A DNA stretch of 38,409 bases, from the NCBI GenBank assembly GCA_038093975.1, contig JBBPTG010000229.1, forward strand, positions 1 through 38,409, given 5' to 3'. The position numbers were made by a program, and so were the translations under genes. A model generated the notes under the pieces. That model saw only the letters and a program-made list of their open reading frames with translations, was not told the DNA's origin and did not search any database. Below, in pieces: positions 1,393 to 38,409 of this stretch (position 1 is its first letter; every line of letters starts with the position of its first letter). The DNA comes from Chalciporus piperatus. Its lineage: Eukaryota; Basidiomycota; Agaricomycetes; Boletales; Boletaceae.

Positions 1393-2524
1393 CTAAGGAT
1401 ATCCTGAGCTCCTGTACCAACCACGAGCCTTCTCAGGTGTCACTGCCTCCATACATACTGCAATAAGATCATCAAGGGGTGTCTCACTGTTCTCCAGCCT
1501 GCGCCAATGGCGTCGAAAGGCTGCTTTGACTATGCAGGAAGATCAAGATTGAATTCACAATTATGAGAACATTTATGAACTTACCAACATTGAAACTCTC
1601 CTCAATAGGATTGAAATCGGGAGAATACGGTGGAAGAAAGACAAGGTGACAGCCTGCAATGAAATCGGGTCAAATCAAAATGAATAGTATGAGACCCTTG
1701 TAGTTGAAGCTACCTGCTCCTTCGACGACTTGGCGTAACGCCTCACTTTTGTGAATGGATGCATTGTCCATCACCAATACACTGTTGCGTTGAGGAAACT
1801 GCCCCATCTTGGGAAGCTTAATGGACATATGAGTGTGCAATCCCATTCATACTATGTGAAGTTCACTCACCACATCATTCAAGATGAAGTCAAAGAAGTC
1901 TTCACCATTAACGGAGCCAGAGATCGCACGTAGTGCAATATAGCCATCCATGGTGAGGGCAGGAATGATGGACCAGCGCTCCCCGCGTTTGTGCGTCACG
2001 GACTCAACTGCCCGCTCACCTATGGGTGCACGACCATGAAGTCGAACAAGCGTCCGGCCATCCTTATTGGATTCATCAACAAAGACAAGTTGATGTGATC
2101 CATATGTTGAGAGCATCTTGATGCGCCACTGTGTACGTGCGACTTCGTCCCGCTGGGCAGCTGTACGTTTGAGGACCTTGAGTCGCAGTCCAATGTCACG
2201 TAGATTGTCGTGTAAAGCAGTGGTTGAGATGGGTTGGTCATGATAGACAGCGAGCCAGTCACCAATTTCGTCGAGGAACAGGGAGGGAGTTTCATGAATG
2301 AGGTCATGTAGTTCAGTGAGAACTGCAGCGTTAAGTAATCGGGGTCGTCCGCGAAGAACGGAAGGTGGATCGACTCGACCATGCCCCTCGTAGTTGTCAG
2401 CCCAACGATTGACACTTTGTCTTGACACACCTAAGGCCTCAGTCACCTCTTCCATCTCGCAGCCCATCTCGAGCAGTTCTAGTGCTCGTTGCTTCATGTC
2501 TGGACTGATTTTGCGATATACCAT
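1393..2524 (-). CDS. Tc1/mariner-type DDE transposase with three introns
   Basis: Spliced exons are 2524-1871, 1816-1714, 1653-1585 and 1529-1393, giving 320 residues, close to a normal Tc1 transposase. The N-terminus is a helix-turn-helix region (MVYRKISPDMKQRALELLEM, then GVSRQSVNRWADNY) followed by a GRPR motif. The DDE_3 core is complete: first Asp in FVDESNKDGR, second in VLVMDNASIHKS, and Glu in PYSPDFNPIEE. There are 34 residues between the second Asp and the Glu, a DD34E signature. The C-terminus GWYRSSGYP is typical of the family. The start at 2524 fits the usual family N-terminus; an in-frame ATG at 2623 would add 33 low-complexity residues. No frameshift is seen, so this copy could be functional, although I did not find the terminal inverted repeats. 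Confidence 0.88.
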
Positions 2525-2930
2525 TGTTGCAATCTTGCGTTGTGAGGCTGCTCCGGATTTTCTGAATTTTCTGAATTGTTTGATTTTCTGAATTTCGAAC
2601 GCGTGTTTGCGCCACCCGGACAAGAATTTCCGAAACAGTTGTATCCGGCTGGCTCAGTCGTGTTGAGCTCGTTTCAGGGTCGTTGGGTTTGTGGGGGGTT
2701 AATGGTCTCCTTGTCTGTGCCAGGTGGCTTTGGGGTAGCCGGCTGAGCTCGGTCGTGTTAGGACTCGTATTGCATTTCATTGTGCCCCATCATCTGGGAC
2801 TGTGCCATTTTCGCAGTCTCAGGCAGTGGCTTTCTTGTTTTACTGCGTTGGGGGGGCAGGGGGTAGCCTCAGAGCATCGTCTGCTATTTCCTTGCCCGCT
2901 TTTTTAGCGTGGGAATTTCGACCATGGTAG
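2525..2930. other. Region between transposase start and CHAT fragment
   Basis: It holds short tandem ttttctgaa repeats (about 2557-2598) just upstream of the transposase start. It also has an imperfect ~28 bp direct repeat (around 2644-2670 and 2739-2767). One Tc1 end and the breakpoint that truncates the CHAT gene probably lie here, but I could not place a terminal inverted repeat or a TA duplication. Confidence 0.4.
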
Positions 2931-4454
2931 TGGTTCGAGTTCAAGGAGCCCCCCGCGGAACACTTTCGACATCATACGACACTCGCAGCCTACCAAACGT
3001 CAATCCAAACCCTGGTCCGCCACGTTGCCACCCTGCCATATCTGTCCCTGCATCTTTCCAGGCTGAAGTACCTCGCGTCGTCTCTGGCAGTGGATGCCTT
3101 TTCTGCCTACATGCGTCACAGCTCTCTTACCGATGCTATCGAGCTTCTTGAGCAGGGACGTGGTGTGTTCTGGACTCAGTTGCTCCGTCTCCGTTCTCCC
3201 CTTGACGATGTCATTGCGTCTGGCGATACAGGGAAGGCCTTTGCAGAGAAATTTACAACGCTAAGTTCAATGCTCAGCCTTGTTCCCGATTCCACTTCCA
3301 CGTCACAGTATGATCGAGGATGGCATCTCAGCATTCAACTACAGGACGTCGTCAGTGTCATTCGCAAGCTACCGGGCTTCTCACGTTTCCTTCTCCCCCC
3401 GCTCTTCTCAGACCTCCAAAAGGCTGCCAGCGTGGGCCCTGTAATCATCGTGAATGCTAGCCAGTATAGCTGCGATGCCTTGATCATTCTCCCCGATCAG
3501 GATCCTGTCCCCGTCCCCCTCGCAATCACCAAAGCAACCGTTCGCGAACAGTCTTTGTACCTTTCTAGTCTGACCGAACGCGCCAAAACGAACGATGTGA
3601 CAAAGGATCTCGTCCTCCTTCTCCGGGAACTCTGGAACCTGGTCGTGTTCCCCATAGTCGATATCCTCCTCACTTTACATCCTCGCGGCTCGCGTATCTG
3701 GTGGTGCCCGACCGCAGAGTTTTCCCTGTTGCCTCTGCACGCAGCTGGGGCATACAGAAAAGGGGAACCAAATTTCTCCGACCTCTATATCTCGTCGTAT
3801 ACACCAACCTTGACAGCACTGATTCACGCCAGACAACAGAGCCCGTCGAGCCCCACCACGGAAGGCCGACATTTCGTCGCTATAGGCCAAGCCAAGGCGG
3901 ATGGCGAAAGGGAGCTCGTTTCTGTGCACGCCGAGTTAGCCAATGTAGCAGAGCGTATCACTCCCTTCGCCACGGTGACGTGCCTCCAGGGTCGTGATGC
4001 GACCATTTCCAAGGTGGCAGAAGCGCTACGCAAGAACGAGTATGTGCATCTTGCCTGCCACGGGGTTCCAGACCCTAAACGACCATTCGAATCCGCCTTC
4101 CCGCTCCACGACGCACGCTTGAAGGTCGAAGACATCATGCGACTTAATATGCAGAACCCTCAATTTGCATATTTGTCTGCTTGTCAAACCACTGTCGGAG
4201 ACGAGGAGAGCCCAGACGAAGCCATCCATCTAGCAGCGGCGATGCATTACGCTGGTTTCCGTTCCGTTATCGGCACGATGTGGGCAGTGGACGATGCCCA
4301 CACTACCAAGATTACCACCGCGTTTTATAAGAATATGGTGGATGAGCCTGGGCAGCTAGATTACACCCATGCAGCATATGCCTTGCACAAGACAATGAGA
4401 ACGGTGGCTATACCTTTCGATCAGCGACTTCTGTTCATCCACATAGGTGCATAG
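2931..4454 (+). pseudogene. CHAT-domain (caspase-like) protein, 5'-truncated, TPR part missing
   Basis: The frame is open from 2931, directly after an in-frame TAG, to the stop at 4452-4454, about 507 residues without an intron. The first ~100 residues look like the last helical repeats of TPR-CHAT proteins (IELLEQGRGVFWTQLLRLRS). The rest is a full CHAT domain. The caspase-like dyad is present: His in HLACHG (codon 4059-4061) and Cys in YLSACQT (codon 4182-4184), with GTMWAVDDAHT after it. Mushroom TPR-CHAT proteins normally have many N-terminal TPRs; here the upstream DNA is unrelated, so the gene has lost its 5' part or begins at an acceptor near 2930 whose other exons I cannot see. The peptidase domain itself shows no lesion. 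The family may act in cell death or defence, but no role is shown here. Confidence 0.8.
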
Positions 4455-4624
4455 CAGTGAGTGACCGTGTTAACTCTATCTGTGGCATGCAATGAATCCT
4501 TGTTCAGGATTTCTGTCGGTGAATGTCCTTGCTTCCAGGTTTTTTGCGTACATTTTCACGAGATTCAATTTGTATCTTTAGTTTGGAATCCCTTTGGGAT
4601 ACGTGCCATGTCATGGGGTACTAT

Positions 4625-31657: not shown

Positions 31658-33515
31658 CGATGTTATCGAACTCAGCAGTCGCGACAACTTGGCTGGCCCC
31701 GCGTCTAGCAACGACTCGGAGGGGCACATACTCCCCGTCGACGTCAGCCACGATACTAAGCCACCACCTTCCAAGAAAATGAGACATTCGGCATCAACCT
31801 CTACTGCGGGCGCGGGAGCGAAACCAAAGTCCACCGTGAAACCGTTTCGACTCACCGATACCTCCTCCTCCCGCTCCTCCAGAACCACTGGAAACAATTC
31901 AGCTTGATATCAGACTAGGAGGTCAGCTATGAAGTCGATATCGCGGCCGCAGCCAAAGCCTCCGGTCAACGACCGTCAACTCCGCCTCCTGCTAAACCAC
32001 TCATTAGCGAGAGCGAAGGCGAAGAGACTCACGATGACCAAGGAAAGCCGAAAAACGAGGTATATGAGACGATGCCAATTATCCCTATATAGGACTAAAC
32101 TTGTTTCCAGAAGAAACATGCGACCACGGAATACTACGATGTCACTGACCCGTTCATCGACTCTGAATTGAACATCGATAATCGAACACACTTTGCGCCT
32201 AGAGATCGTGTATGTGTCACGACGATCCTCAAATCAGAAGCCGTCCACCCTGTTGTCCTCCGAGGGTTCGAGTTCAAGCAGGAGGATGGCACAAAGGAAC
32301 ATCCTCTCAATCTGCTTGGGGACGAGAAGGTCGGGAAGAAGCGGAAGAACTACACTGTCATCGAGGAGAATGGCAAGAAGCGCAAAGTTGTCGACTTGGT
32401 ATGGCTCTCTGCCATATGAATCCTTATCGTGTCTTACCCCCCCATTGTCAGTGCGAGTTTCATCCCGAATTGCAGGTCGCCATCGAAGTATTCAAGGTCG
32501 CCATTTCGAAAGGTTCGTTGCGGTACTGTTGTGTCCGTCATCTTGACCAAGTCGACCATCATTACAGAGTCATGGGACGTCAAAGGGAAATTTCCTCTGG
32601 CGATCAAACCTGTCCTCGCCGATGTGGCTTTGAGAGCCGTCGGACTCGGAGATTACGACGACGACTTTTTCAGCCTCATGCACGTACTGCTCCCGATGAC
32701 CGTACGTCTCTCTTCTCTCCGTACTCGTTGTATCGGGCCTGACGCGCGTTCCCAGAGACTTATTAAGCGGACTATTTTCCACGACCACCTCAAGGTCCTT
32801 ACGGACAGACATGAAGAGCTGTTGGTACAACTCGCGACCCTCACGACGGACGGGTTCCCCAAAGCTAAGGAAGAGTGGGAGAAGAGCGTGGTCGCCTGGG
32901 GTTCGTCTTAGTACGGCTTACCACGCACGCTGGGTTGACCTAAACTCACCCAGAGAAACGACAGGAGAAAGCCAAGGCGGAGTCAGAAGCGGGGACTGCT
33001 TCAACACCCACGGTGATGCTCAGAGCCACTGGCGAGGGTGTTTTTGGGATGACCAAACACGAGGGCGGAAAGGATTCGCATCCTCTAGCAGAAAAGTATT
33101 GTTTGATGGAGGCGATGAAGTTGATGATATGGCAACTTTCATGTTGAGCAACGAATGCTGTTGGTTGGAGAACGAAAAGAAGTGCGTCGTGCCCTTGGCT
33201 TCGGTTTCACGAGTTCACGTCTGACTTCCTTTACAGCGAGCTGGAGGGTAGTAATGCCCAAGTCAGCGAGCAAGGGTCGCGGAAGGTGCTTTATCAAAAG
33301 GTTCGTCGAGGACGTCCGTACCCCAGCGTGAAATCTAATGCTGTTCTCGCAGATCGTCGCGGCTTTCCCTACCGGTTGGCTCAACTCGGGTCAGATATTG
33401 AGAGAAGGTCCGTGTGCGACAATATATATAGACTTCACCCGCTCACCTCCCTACCTCTTTTGTCCTTTTAACAGTCAGTGCGATGAAAAAGAAACACGAG
33501 AAAGAAGCAATGTAG
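31658..33515 (+). pseudogene. HPC2/ubinuclein-like histone chaperone subunit, with frameshifts
   Basis: The Hpc2-related domain is clear (YYDVTDPFIDSELNIDNRTH). The ubinuclein middle domain follows: FHPELQVAIEVFKVAISK, ESWDVKGKFPLAIKPVLADV, LIKRTIFHDHLKVLTDRHEE, LNSGQILREV. It ends KKKHEKEAM with TAG at 33513-33515. Introns are at 32398/32454, 32511/32566, 32701/32755, 32900/32954, 33181/33236, 33301/33352 and 33410/33478 (approximate). In other fungi this protein is part of the HIR complex, which deposits H3-H4 outside S phase. HPC2 homologues tend to be single-copy, so damage would be surprising. I see register shifts near 31860, 31924-31927 and 33142-33146 (one T short of CLSNECC). The start exon was not found. 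Either this is a pseudogene or the assembly has small indel errors. Confidence 0.72.
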
Positions 33516-34133
33516 CAAGACGGCTGATTCCGCCGTCTGTGCCCATCCTCCGTTGTCTACTCCGATCACTGCTCCGCCTCATCCGTCTGCTGTTCACGCT
33601 CGTTCCCATAACATTATTGGTACATGTTACTCTTTTCTTCTATTTCTCGGTCAGTTCCCTCTTCAAGTTACTGTGTATGAGCTCTGTCTACATCTACTCC
33701 CCGCATCAAATGTGTGCTGTTGCTAGTCCAAGTACATTGTCTCCACTTATTACTCTCGACATGTTAGGCACTTTTTATTCTGCTCCTTTGCTGATTCTAT
33801 GCTGTAACATTCACATCAATCTACTTCTCCTGTGCACCAAAGACATTCTTGATTGATGGCAATACAGACTCAACACCAGATGACACAATACTCGAATCAG
33901 GGCTAGTATGAACACATGGGTTGAACCATGAAGGAAAGAGAAATACAAGGGTTGAACCATTGGGGAAAGAGAAAGAAGTACTATCACTATTGTTTTTTTC
34001 ATTTTTGTCAGAAGGAGTCAATCCATGAAACAAGGAGTTTGAACAAAGCATAGAGATGAAGAAAACCCTTCACATTCCAACCTGCATTGCAACCTCTGTT
34101 GAAGAGTTTGCCAGTCCCTTCTCTGGACATAGG
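33516..34133. other. Convergent 3' region
   Basis: Lies between the HPC2-like stop and the stop of the microexon gene. On the minus strand 34042-33821 is open and protein-like (NSLFHGLTPSDKNEKNNSDS). It could be another exon of the neighbouring gene, but I could not connect it. Confidence 0.4.
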
Positions 34134-34873
34134 TTATGTCCTTTTGAAGAGCTTTCTAGCAAGCTTCCTGACTTTTTGAGTAAAGGACTGAGGTTGAGGC
34201 CAAGGTTGAGGTTGAGGCTGAGACTGCTTGAAGACATGTTTCTCATCTTGATTGGATGCTAGATGAACCAAGTGAAATAGACAGGCTTGGAAAACTGACC
34301 TGAGCAGCTAGTGACAATCTTGATGATCTCTTCACATAACAAATCCAGGTCATCCTCATACTTCTGAGTGGCTTCAGAAATAGACTGAATCACAGCAGGA
34401 AGCTGAGGAGACTGAAGATAGTGCTTGATAGAGGAGGCAAGAATATCACCCTTCTCTTCTCGATCCCAAGAATAGAAAGAATGATCAATAATGATCAAGA
34501 AGGCTAGACACAAAGGGTTATTGAATATCATAGAAACATATAATGCATGTGCATACATGCAGAAAGAATAGCTGTTTGATTGAGGCTAGAACCCTGAATC
34601 TGAAACATTGGAGTAAGCATACAAAGACATAGGGCAGGAGGGAAACTAACCAAGGAATGCAGACCAGATTGAACAGCAGAAATATGATGGTCTTGAATCT
34701 GAAAAAAATGCCCAATATCAATGGAAATATAAGGGAAGAAAGACATGTATTTACCCTCTGCACAATGAAAATTGAGGATTGAGGGTCAAACAAAATATAA
34801 ATAGTTCATACCATCTGTAAATAGAATTAGATATAAATTCAATGAAATAATTATCAGAATAAAATCTTACTAG
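34134..34873 (-). CDS. 3' exons of an unrecognised gene fed by 3-nt microexons
   Basis: Read on the minus strand, four ordinary exons (34698-34651, 34599-34557, 34503-34300, 34258-34134) join in one frame through clean GT-AG introns of 41-53 nt. They encode IQDHHISAVQSGLHSL, IQGSSLNQTAILSA, a helical segment with FYSWDREEKGDILASSIKHY and KYEDDLDLLCEEIIKIVTSC, then a Gln-Pro repeat (QPQPQPWPQPQ) and a basic end KVRKLARKLFKRT, with TAA at 34134-34136. Immediately upstream come 3-nt exons flanked by AG and GT: AGG (34757-34755), ATG (34814-34812) and CTA (34873-34871), then the tandem array. If the ATG exon is the start, the product is 141 residues. If the array is also translated, it adds one residue per unit. 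I do not recognise the family. The perfect frame through four exons argues for a real gene. Confidence 0.65.
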
Positions 34874-37800
34874 CTTGAGCACACAAGAGTGAGCACAGAT
34901 TCAGAAACATGAACAGAAGCACATCAACTTACCATCTATGAACACACAAGGAATAGAACAGCAGTGAGCATGGATTGAGATGCATCAACTCAAGCAAATC
35001 AACTTACATACTATGAACACACAAGGAATGGAACAGCAGTGAGCACAGATTCAGAAACATGAACAGAAGCACATCAACTTACCATCTATGAACACACAAG
35101 GAATAGAACAGCAGTAAGCATGGATCCAGAAACATGAACAGAAGCACATCAACTTACCCACTATGAACACACAAGGAATAGAACAGCAGTGAGCATGGAT
35201 CCAGAAGCATCAACTCAAGGACATCAACTTACATACTATGAACACACAAGAAATACAGCAGTAGTGAGCATGGATTGAGATACATCAACTCAAGCAAATC
35301 AACTTACCATCTATGAACATACAAGAAATACAACAGCAGTGAGTATGGTTTGAGATACATCAACTCAAGCACATCAACTTACATCCTATGAACACACAAG
35401 GAGTTGACCGGCAGTGAGCATGGATTCAGAAACATCAACTCAAGGACATCAACTTACATCCTATGAACACAAGGAATAGAACAGGAGTGAGCATGGATCC
35501 AGAAACATCAACTCAAGCACATCAACTTACATCCTATGAACACACAAGGAGTTGACCAGCAGTGAGCATGGATCCAGAAACATCAACTCAAGGACATCAA
35601 CTTACCCGCTTTGATGAACATACAAGGAATAGAACAGCATTGAGCATGGATTCAGAAACATCAACTCAAGCACATCAACTTACCATCTATGAACACACAA
35701 GGAATAGAACAGCAGTGAGCATGGATTCAGAAATATGAAGTCAAGGACATCAACTCACATACTATGAACACACAAGGAATACAACAGCATTGAGCATGGA
35801 TTCAGAAACATCAACTCAAGCACATCAACTTACATCCTATGAACACAAGGAATAGAACAGGAGTGAACATGGATCCAGAAACATCAACTCAAGCACATCA
35901 ACTTACCTCCTATGAACACACAAGGAATTGACCAGCAGTGAGCATGGATCCAGAAAAATCAACTCAAGGACATCAACTTACCCGCTATGATGAACACACA
36001 AGGAATAGAACAGCAGTGAGCATGGAGTGAGATACATCAACTCAAGCAAATCAACTTACCATCTATGAACATACAAGGAATACAACAGCAGTGAGTATGG
36101 TTTGAGATACATCAACTCAAGCAAATCAACTTACCCGCTATGAACACACAAGGAATACAACAGCATTGAGCATGGATTCAGAAACATCAACTCAAGCACA
36201 TCAACTTACATCCTATGAACACAAGGAATAGAACAGGAGTGAGCATGGATCCAGAAACATCAACTCAAGCACATCAACTTACCTCCTATGAACACACAAG
36301 GAGTTGACCAGCAGTGAGCATGGATCCAGAAACATCAACTCAAGGACATCAACTTACCCACTATGATGAACACACAAGGGATAGAACAGCATTGAGCATG
36401 GATTCAGAAACATGAACAGAAGCACGTCAACTTACCTCCTATGAACACACAAGGAATAGAACAGCAGTGAGCATGGATTGAGATACATCAACTCAAGCAA
36501 ATCAACTTACCATCTATGAACATACAAGGAATTGACCAGCAGTGAGCATGGATCCAGAAAAATCAACTCAAGGACATCAACTTACCCGCTATGATGAACA
36601 CACAAGGAATAGAACAGCAGTGAGCATGGAGTGAGATACATCAACTCAAGCACATCAACTTACATCCTATGAACACAAGGAATAGAACAGGAGTGAGCAT
36701 GGATCCAGAAACATCAACTCAAGCACATCAACTTACCCGCTATGATGAACACACAAGGGATAGAACAGCAGTGAGCAAGGATTCAGAAACATCAACTCAA
36801 GGACATCAACTTACCTCCTATGAACACAAGGAATAGAACAGGAGTGAGCATGGATCCAGAAACATCAACTCAAGCACATCAACTTACCCGCTATGATGAA
36901 CACACAAGGGATAGAACAGCAGTGAGCAAGGATTCAGAAACATCAACTCAAGGACATCAACTTACCTCCTATGAACACAAGGAATAGAACAGGAGTGAGC
37001 ATGGATCCAGAAACATCAACTCAAGCACATCAACTTACCCGCTATGATGAACACACAAGGAATAGAACAGCAGTGAGCATGGATCCAGAAACATCAACTC
37101 AAGGACATCAACTTACCTCCTATGAACACACAAGAAATAGAATAGCAGTAAACATGGATTCAGAAACATCAATTCAAGGACATCAACTTACCCGCTGTGA
37201 ACACACAAGGAATAGAACAGCAGTAAGCATGGATCCAGAAATATAAATTCAAGGACATCAACTTACCCGCTATGATGAACACACAAGAAATACAGCAGTA
37301 GTGAGCAAGGATTCAAAAACATCAACTCAAGGACATCAACTTACCACCTATGAATACACAAGGAATAGAACAGCAGTGAGCATGGATTGAGATACATCAA
37401 CTCAAGCAAATCAACTAACCCGCTATGAACACACAAGAAATAGAACAGCATTGAGCATGGATTCAGAAACATCAACTCAAGGACATCAACTTACCTCCTA
37501 TGAACACACAAGAAATAGAATAGCAGTAAACATGGATTCAGAAACATCAATTCAAGGACATCAACTTACCCGCTATGAACACACAAGGAATAGAACAGCA
37601 GTGAGCATGGATTGAGATACATCAACTCAAACAAATCAACTTACATACTATGAACACACAAGGAATAGAAAAGCAGTGAGTATGGATTGAGATACATCAA
37701 CTCAAGCAAATCAACTTACCGGCTGTGAACACACAAGGAATAGAACAGCAGTAAGCATGGATCCAGAAATATGAATTCAAGGACATCAACTTACCCGCTA

Positions 37801-38409
37801 TGATGAACACACAAGAAATACAGCAGTAGTGAGCATGGATTCAAAAACATCAACTCAAGGACATCAACTTACCACCTATGAATACACAAGGAATAGAACA
37901 GCAGTGAGCATGGATTGAGATACATCAACTCAAGCAAATCAACTAACCCGCTATGAACACACAAGAAATAGAATAGCATTGAGCATGGATCCAGAAATAT
38001 GAAGTCAAGGACATCAACTCACATACTATGAACACACAAGGAATAGAATAGCAGTGAGTATGGATCCAGAAATATGAATTCAAGGACATCAACTTACCCG
38101 CTATGATGAACACACAAGAAATACAGCAGTAGTGAGCATGGATTCAAAAACATCAACTCAAGGACATCAACTTACCACCTATGAATACACAAGGAATAGA
38201 ACAGCAGTGAGCATGGATTGAGATACATCAACTCAAGCAAATCAACTAACCCGCTATGAACACACAAGAAATAGAATAGCAGTGAGCATGGATCCAGAAA
38301 TATGAAGTCAAGGACATCAACTCACATACTATGAACACACAAGGAATAGAACAGGAGTGAGCATGGATCCAGAAATATGAAGTCAAGGACATCAACTTAC
38401 CCCCTATGA
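34866..38409 (-). repeat. Tandem array of ~75 bp intron-like units with 3-nt spacers (continues past window)
   Basis: On the minus strand each unit runs GTAAGTTGAT...(C/T)ATGCTCACTG...TTCATAG, then exactly three bases, then the next GTAAGT. I count 48 junctions. Donors are GTAAGT except three GTGAGT and three GTTAGT; acceptors are TAG except two AAG and two CAG. All remain valid GT-AG. The three bases vary: CGG 15, GAG 7, ATG 6, TAT 6, GAT 6, GTG 3, TGG 2, and CTA, CCG and GGG once each. Intron-like length is ~70-75 nt, the normal size for this genome. A yTyAy motif ~30 nt before the AG could serve as branch site. Unit length varies through an extra cat before tag (78 nt) or loss of two bases (73 nt), changes inside the intron-like part only. 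Confidence 0.9.

Follow-up and report, generated by a model that had tools for sequence, protein, structure and literature searches.

A satellite of intron and codon units predicted to be spliced into a hypervariable linker of an Agaricomycete GTPase family

Can a tandem repeat of intron-like units, spaced exactly 3 nucleotides (nt) apart, be part of a protein-coding gene, or is it a satellite in which splice motifs merely recur? The question is raised by the minus strand at one end of contig C229 (JBBPTG010000229.1) of the fungus Chalciporus piperatus. The window analyzed here is this entire contig, 38,409 bases of a 35.5-Mb assembly in 484 contigs (GCA_038093975.1). We consider it very probable that the array is a satellite of intron-plus-codon units that would be spliced into a hypervariable linker, located mid-gene in a large, uncharacterized family of Agaricomycete P-loop GTPases.

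On the minus strand, 47 donors of the form GT[AGT]AGT bound 46 complete units, each consisting of an intron of 70, 72, or 75 nt plus one codon, with a partial unit at the contig edge (satellite part 34933..38409, delimited by unit count, Tandem Repeats Finder, and frame joining). The AG is followed by exactly 3 nt and then the next GT in 46 of 46 complete units; a first-pass annotation had described this spacing correctly but had counted 48 units, slightly too many. Unit lengths were 75 bp (n = 30), 78 bp (n = 10), and 73 bp (n = 6), and their donors were GTAAGT (40), GTGAGT (3), and GTTAGT (3). The triplets behind these units were CGG (15), GAG (7), TAT (6), GAT (6), ATG (6), GTG (3), TGG (2), and CCG (1). 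Tandem Repeats Finder reported the array at 34888-38409 with a period of 75 and 46.7 copies. The first single-codon exon, GGG (38401..38403), lies at the contig edge, and three others come after the regular satellite, which stops near 34,933. These are CTA (34871..34873), between a shortened satellite-like intron of 59 nt (34874-34932) and an intron of 56 nt (34815-34870), ATG (34812..34814), with introns of 56 and 54 nt on either side, and AGG (34755..34757), with introns of 54 and 56 nt; by eye, the introns flanking ATG and AGG are not satellite copies. Overall, the array introns of the window measure 54-75 nt, the strong donor GTAAGT opens 41 of 50, and the single-codon exons comprise 50 triplets of 11 kinds with no stop, in line with the earlier description of varying triplets that are never stops.

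The single-codon exons are followed on the same strand by 4 conventional exons, namely IQDHHISAVQSGLHSL in phase 0 (34651..34698), IQGSSLNQTAILSA.. (34557..34599), the C-terminal helical part FLIIIDHSFYSWD...IVTSCS (34300..34503), and the last coding exon, with TAA at 34134 (34134..34258). The 3 introns between them have the donors GTTAGT, GTATGC, and GTCAGT. Joined together, the 50 single codons and the 4 conventional exons form one open frame that starts with G-YRVRYRVRPYRERVRR... and ends with ...KLFKRT-stop. The array runs off the contig end and is therefore cut by the assembly, so 46 units is a minimum, and the 5' half of the gene lies past the contig end.

A DNA search of the genome identified related arrays on contigs C122 (two, C122a and C122b), C110, C259, C220, C128, and C20, giving eight arrays with the window. 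Seven of them occupy one shared position in paralogous GTPase genes, with the WFP exon on one side and the next conventional exon on the other, and the window, with the 5' gene half absent from its contig, is the eighth. A C-terminal query matched C110, C20, C220, C128, C229, and both C122 copies. The best view of a whole gene comes from C110, where the joined exons form an open frame of 434 residues in which IDNLFRDNDDCSDISCEQLE, located after ...ASWFPHIY and before LSYLRGPQARRPLHTM..., is encoded by 20 single-codon exons in a row (the model is ambiguous at the junction in front of its fifth exon, which leaves the array unaffected). The exons on both sides of the C110 array are in phase 0, as is the 3' side in the window, and in C110 this phase is set by the GTPase and C-terminal reading frames, independently of the array. 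The first exon of C110 scored 23.9 bits against PF01926 (Pfam MMR_HSR1), above the curated cut-off of 21.9; among four homologs, P0047 (23.7) and P0002 (22.4) also scored above it, with P0036 (20.1) and P0021 (19.6) below. A structure search singled out no GTPase subfamily and barely covered the C-terminal part.

The paralogs also have single-codon exons beyond the satellite, bordered by at least one non-satellite intron; there, the codons after the array are TTG followed by AAG, GAG, ATG, or AAT, or else ATG followed by ACG. The positional counterparts of the window exons ATG (34812..34814) and AGG (34755..34757) are ATG and ACG, respectively, in both C122 copies. Units of C128 and C220 are common at both ends of the two arrays and different in the middle, where short blocks of units recur, a pattern that fits change by duplication and loss of units. 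The C259 array (C259:25000-32813) is split by a long non-array insertion at about 2500-4540 of that stretch, and both flanks of the insertion retain several intact single-codon units. In C122a (C122:8500-18000, minus strand), damaged units with GC donors, a lost AG, or a 5-nt gap stand beside intact ones. Diverged GTPase genes adjoin array-bearing copies at C122:18323-18496, C122:66279-66455, and C110:25404-25613, and the loci look like small clusters. These diverged neighbors showed no run of 4 or more single-codon sites in stretches L029 and L030, nor one of three on the L011 minus strand; similarly, the GTPase copy on C3 had no array within the stretch read.

How regular are these arrays when the exon length is left free? 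We parsed all eight with a splice parser that required GT (or GCAAGT) and AG, allowed exons of 1-40 nt, and deducted 0.05 per exon base, a slight preference for short exons. The parsed exons were 3 nt long in 228 of 252 cases, with 49/49 in C229, 16/16 in C122b, 45/46 in C220, 37/38 in C128, 20/21 in C110, 19/22 in C20, 28/34 in C122a, and 14/26 in C259, and the parsed introns took 3-18 different lengths per array. The parser splits the long first intron of C110, C220, C128, and C20, adding an exon of 4 or 7 nt; we read it as a single intron (120 nt in C110). None of the 228 array codons is a stop, although the composition of the three codon columns would predict about 9.4, and the two shifted frames of the joined codons contain 10 and 43 stops; as units within an array are interdependent, no p value is given for this absence.

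The first-pass annotation had regarded the pattern as going beyond an ordinary minisatellite. A homogeneous satellite, however, repeats whatever chance motif it contains, and we used as a control the strict motif YAG-n-GTRNG on both strands. Antisense runs of this motif at other spacings (1, 2, and 7 nt) do occur, and 2-nt runs reach lengths of 9 in the window and 23 in C122a. The strict 3-nt sense runs of the window were 3, 6, 23, and 9, being split because GTTAGT donors and one AAG acceptor break the motif. Because antisense chance runs occur in homogeneous arrays, the window by itself is no proof, and it is the diverged arrays that discriminate. There, strict 3-nt sense runs reached 18 in C110, 45 in C220, and 37 in C128, whereas antisense runs were at most 7 in C220 and C128 and absent from C110. 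Long runs in the diverged arrays are thus sense 3-nt runs only, which tells the 3-nt pattern apart from repetition of a chance motif. Simple chance was rejected on this basis.

Column statistics, calculated on units or introns of the commonest length only, agree with protection of the splice sites. The splice dinucleotides had zero entropy in 7 of 8 arrays, and C122a had 0.27 bits at the T of GT; an unconstrained satellite or minisatellite would have no protected position, which is not what the entropies of modal-length units show. Mean unit identity was 0.72 in C110, 0.69 in C259, and 0.68 in C20, the latter two having breaks. C110 is the most diverged unbroken array, with 19 introns of 58-80 nt, and its 15 modal-length introns show no variation at GT, at AG, or at the A of a CTNA-like branch motif. 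Codon positions 1 and 2 were the two most variable columns in C229, C122a, C122b, C220, and C128 (position 3 ties in C122b), and ranked 1 and 3 in C110, 3 and 3 in C259 (n = 7), and 17 and 2 in C20 (n = 5). Different codons can accompany identical introns.

We searched for homologs of the predicted protein to see what stands at the array position in other fungi. Two protein searches gave 991 and 1210 matches, and among the best 120 of each were sequences from Suillus, Boletus, Pisolithus, Rhizopogon, Serendipita, and Phlegmacium. Judging from these sequences, the GTPase family is widespread in Agaricomycetes, and the numerous GTPase matches per Suillus species suggest that it is expanded and fast-evolving. 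We examined 185 homologs, comprising 167 genome-derived proteins and 18 from short contigs (JGI or Logan, 1.1-2.6 kb) hand-picked from the lists by source and contig size, using loose patterns for the WFP motif and for the presence of the C-terminal part. Among the genome-derived proteins, 91 stop before the WFP-like motif that precedes the array position. Another 45 have V[SR], the residues encoded by a read-through GTNAGN or GTNCGN donor, within 6 residues of a WFP-like motif (against a background of 0.45% per position), a further 23 fall short otherwise (a few being loose pattern matches), and 8 have some C-terminal part, leaving 159 of 167 models without a recognizable one. The WFP-like motif was found in 76 of these models, about five of which are loose pattern matches elsewhere.

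The short contigs gave a different picture, as 11 of the 18 homologs extend to the C-terminal part, with a hypervariable segment such as WARYYYDDVRDLDVLDLLRDLDVLLLLKREK or TSDGFWTTHYYYSSYLYHPE at the array position. These 11 contigs are 1.1-1.85 kb long with intron-free coding sequence and were taken as RNA-derived because they are short and intron-free. In seven close relatives the segment is 20-43 residues long and 13-61% identical over aligned residues, compared with 76-97% identity for the upstream 150 residues and 61-91% for the downstream flank. The composition of ten segments correlates with that of the 228 codons of C. piperatus (r 0.78), whereas segments and codons correlate with the GTPase part at r 0.33 and 0.46, and K+Q+I+V makes up 4.8% and 5.7% of segments and codons but 22% of the GTPase part. 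A structure predicted for P0036 places the segment (residues 297-330) after the GTPase domain and before C-terminal helices, at a confidence below 50.

Individual models carry what may be traces of splicing within the segment. P0121 has the segment of P0036 with 17 extra residues, ASR...YQ, which matches what retention of a 51-nt GCAAGT...CAG intron would produce, and P0026, P0039, and P0126 end in VS.. within the segment, the expected outcome if a GTNAGT intron were retained. Further, read-through of an intron-like repeat with a different sequence spans two copies in the Suillus model P0060 and one copy or slightly more in P0085, P0167, and P0173. The first-pass proposal of a multiplied intron-plus-codon module is thus the one we favor, given arrays within coding genes, phase 0, an open frame, and matching segments in homologs.

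Several observations weigh against this reading. Breaks were identified in 3 of the 8 arrays, where 6 of 34 exons in C122a, 12 of 26 in C259 (which also has the long insertion), and 3 of 22 in C20 (one being the split first intron) are not 3 nt long. C259 has no match to the C-terminal query and its N-terminal part, including the P-loop exon, is in pieces, and the P-loop exon of C220 is absent from the stretch read. Repeats within an array are not independent, so that the column statistics overstate the evidence. Among the homologs, some of the 91 short models may be genuine short proteins and not truncated ones, the RNA-derived label of the short contigs was assigned solely from size and intron-free coding sequence, and the single-codon exons are deduced from phase and read-through. 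In the genome-derived Suillus models P0022, P0029, and P0086, the two sides of the site are joined with the segment small or absent, possibly through skipping or as an artifact of prediction. Splicing and full expression of the window copy are likewise inferred. Lastly, the dN/dS of the C-terminal exon, computable in 4 of 7 pairs, was 0.95, 3.0, and 1.4 in the window subfamily, where changes are few, and thus gives no sign of purifying selection; it was 0.57 for C110 versus C20. The GTPase exon of the paralogs, by comparison, is constrained, with values of 0.16-0.51 in 8 of 9 pairs (the ninth undefined). The window copy may therefore be under relaxed or diversifying selection, or decaying.

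Decay of this one copy is the alternative that survives best, although we regard it as unlikely. The family trait would be real, and the window copy would be a pseudogene kept homogeneous by recombination, which accords with the 5' half missing from the contig, the C-terminal dN/dS of about 1 or above in its subfamily, and the damage in C122a and C259. A decaying gene would not readily explain a frame that stays open across 50 single-codon exons and 4 normal ones up to the TAA, or 46 of 46 intact units.

An improbable reading is that of a plain satellite in a long intron, in which a single splice would join the WFP exon to the exon behind the array, leaving the triplets untranslated. The splicing of the array is predicted from sequence, the triplet length of 3 means that skipping any number of units keeps the frame, the Suillus models P0022, P0029, and P0086 come nearly without a segment, and chance antisense motifs recur too in homogeneous arrays. 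This reading leaves unexplained, however, why there are no stops in 228 triplets, why the phase-0 borders fit, why GT and AG are invariant at 72% identity in C110, why single-codon exons exist outside the satellite, and why a hypervariable segment is present in 11 of 18 short-contig homologs.

The first-pass annotation had also raised a recursive-splicing ladder that removes a long intron stepwise, in which the 3-nt steps serve only to restore splice sites and the codons in the end leave together with the intron. After each removal the exon would directly precede the next GT, and stepwise 5'-to-3' removal would be mechanically natural. Classical recursive splice sites, however, have AG immediately next to GT, whereas 3 nt separate them in 46 of 46 units here, and no triplet is a stop. 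Homologous short contigs retain the residues that a ladder would discard. A ladder that is recursive only is disfavored, as it accounts neither for the absence of stops nor for the phase agreement and the segments in homologs, and we hold it to be very improbable; stepwise processing of the array is possible.

Least probable of all is the introner-type element inserting into itself in tandem, a likeness noted at first sight: repeated intron sequence that multiplies does fit, but two DNA searches found related sequence (46 and 51 matches) solely on the seven array contigs (best candidates were scored, and a few stray copies are possible), the triplets flanking one intron mostly differ, leaving no constant target-site duplication, and the unit order of C128 and C220 fits block duplication. 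A short intron-start pattern gave 164 matches, versus 6 for its control, and among the matches listed one lay outside the arrays (C122:5821-5835), with no run of three units in its surroundings. A dispersed introner was rejected, as the related DNA found among the best candidates lay on the array contigs only and this lone match stands without a run.

Under the intron-plus-codon reading, each repeat would consist of one short spliceosomal intron and one codon, and ordinary short-intron splicing would take out about 50 or more introns successively and join the lone codons. Fungi have short introns, which are believed to be recognized across the intron; a 3-nt exon therefore need not be recognized by itself. 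Splice sites 3 nt apart could hardly be occupied simultaneously, and intron removal is therefore probably stepwise. The predicted product is a linker that connects the GTPase domain to the C-terminal helical part, is hypervariable, and consists mostly of charged and aromatic residues. Whole units would be duplicated, lost, or converted and codons would change by single bases, both of which would alter this linker by whole amino acids with the frame kept, and its use would most likely be to recognize a variable partner. Much more tentatively, the array could serve as a diversity generator at the scale of single amino acids, in which unequal crossing-over and gene conversion within the introns shuffle, add, and delete codons, possibly for nonself or partner recognition, and partial skipping adds further variants. 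Codons could be shuffled without the risk of a frameshift because near-identical introns wall off every codon.

How far does this resemble known systems, as these are described in passages of the cited papers? The micro-exon genes (MEGs) of Schistosoma have exons of 3-81 bp and introns of up to 5 kbp (PMC10526429). The arrays resemble them in building protein largely from tiny exons (3 nt in 228 of 252 array exons), and differ in having exons of exactly one codon, separated by short introns that are tandem copies of one another, within a fungal GTPase gene. The bicycle and megacycle genes of aphids evolve rapidly, with about 17 exons on average and more than 100 microexons in one gene, and the internal exons of bicycle genes are nearly all in phase 2 (PMC9168663). 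Many microexons and rapid evolution are shared with the arrays, but the phase here is 0, and those passages describe no tandem satellite of intron plus codon. Introners spread into many genes (PMC9860276); like them, the arrays multiply a near-identical intron sequence, but all copies found stand in tandem, at a single position of one gene family and, unlike some introner families, without a constant target-site duplication. Single microexons down to 1 nt are spliced in plants and filamentous fungi, and plant annotation often misses microexons (PMC8831610, PMC11121469, PMC12940212); in those passages they are isolated or paired, whereas dozens stand in an array here. No report of tandem single-codon exon arrays was found in the open-licence literature, outside which lie most subscription papers and preprints. 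Within the literature so searched, we rate the architecture predicted here, a satellite of intron plus codon, as categorically new.

Elsewhere in the window, by eye, an open reading frame (ORF) at 1847-2623 on the minus strand resembles a Tc1/mariner-type transposase, and another at 3090-4454 on the plus strand resembles a CHAT-type protease domain protein. A bacterial promoter scan of 33000-34000 and Rfam and tRNA scans of the window found nothing relevant.

What would the array mean for these fungi? If confirmed, about 50 consecutive introns would interrupt one gene at every codon, far past the usually assumed minimum for exon size and exon recognition, and the arrays would offer an extreme natural test of intron definition and of splicing order. 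The satellite of intron plus codon would also be a new route to protein hypervariability, by which a fungus could add, drop, or swap single amino acids with the gene unbroken. With 159 of 167 genome-derived models lacking a C-terminal part and 45 carrying a read-through donor, a large hidden class of variable proteins may be mis-annotated in mushroom genomes.

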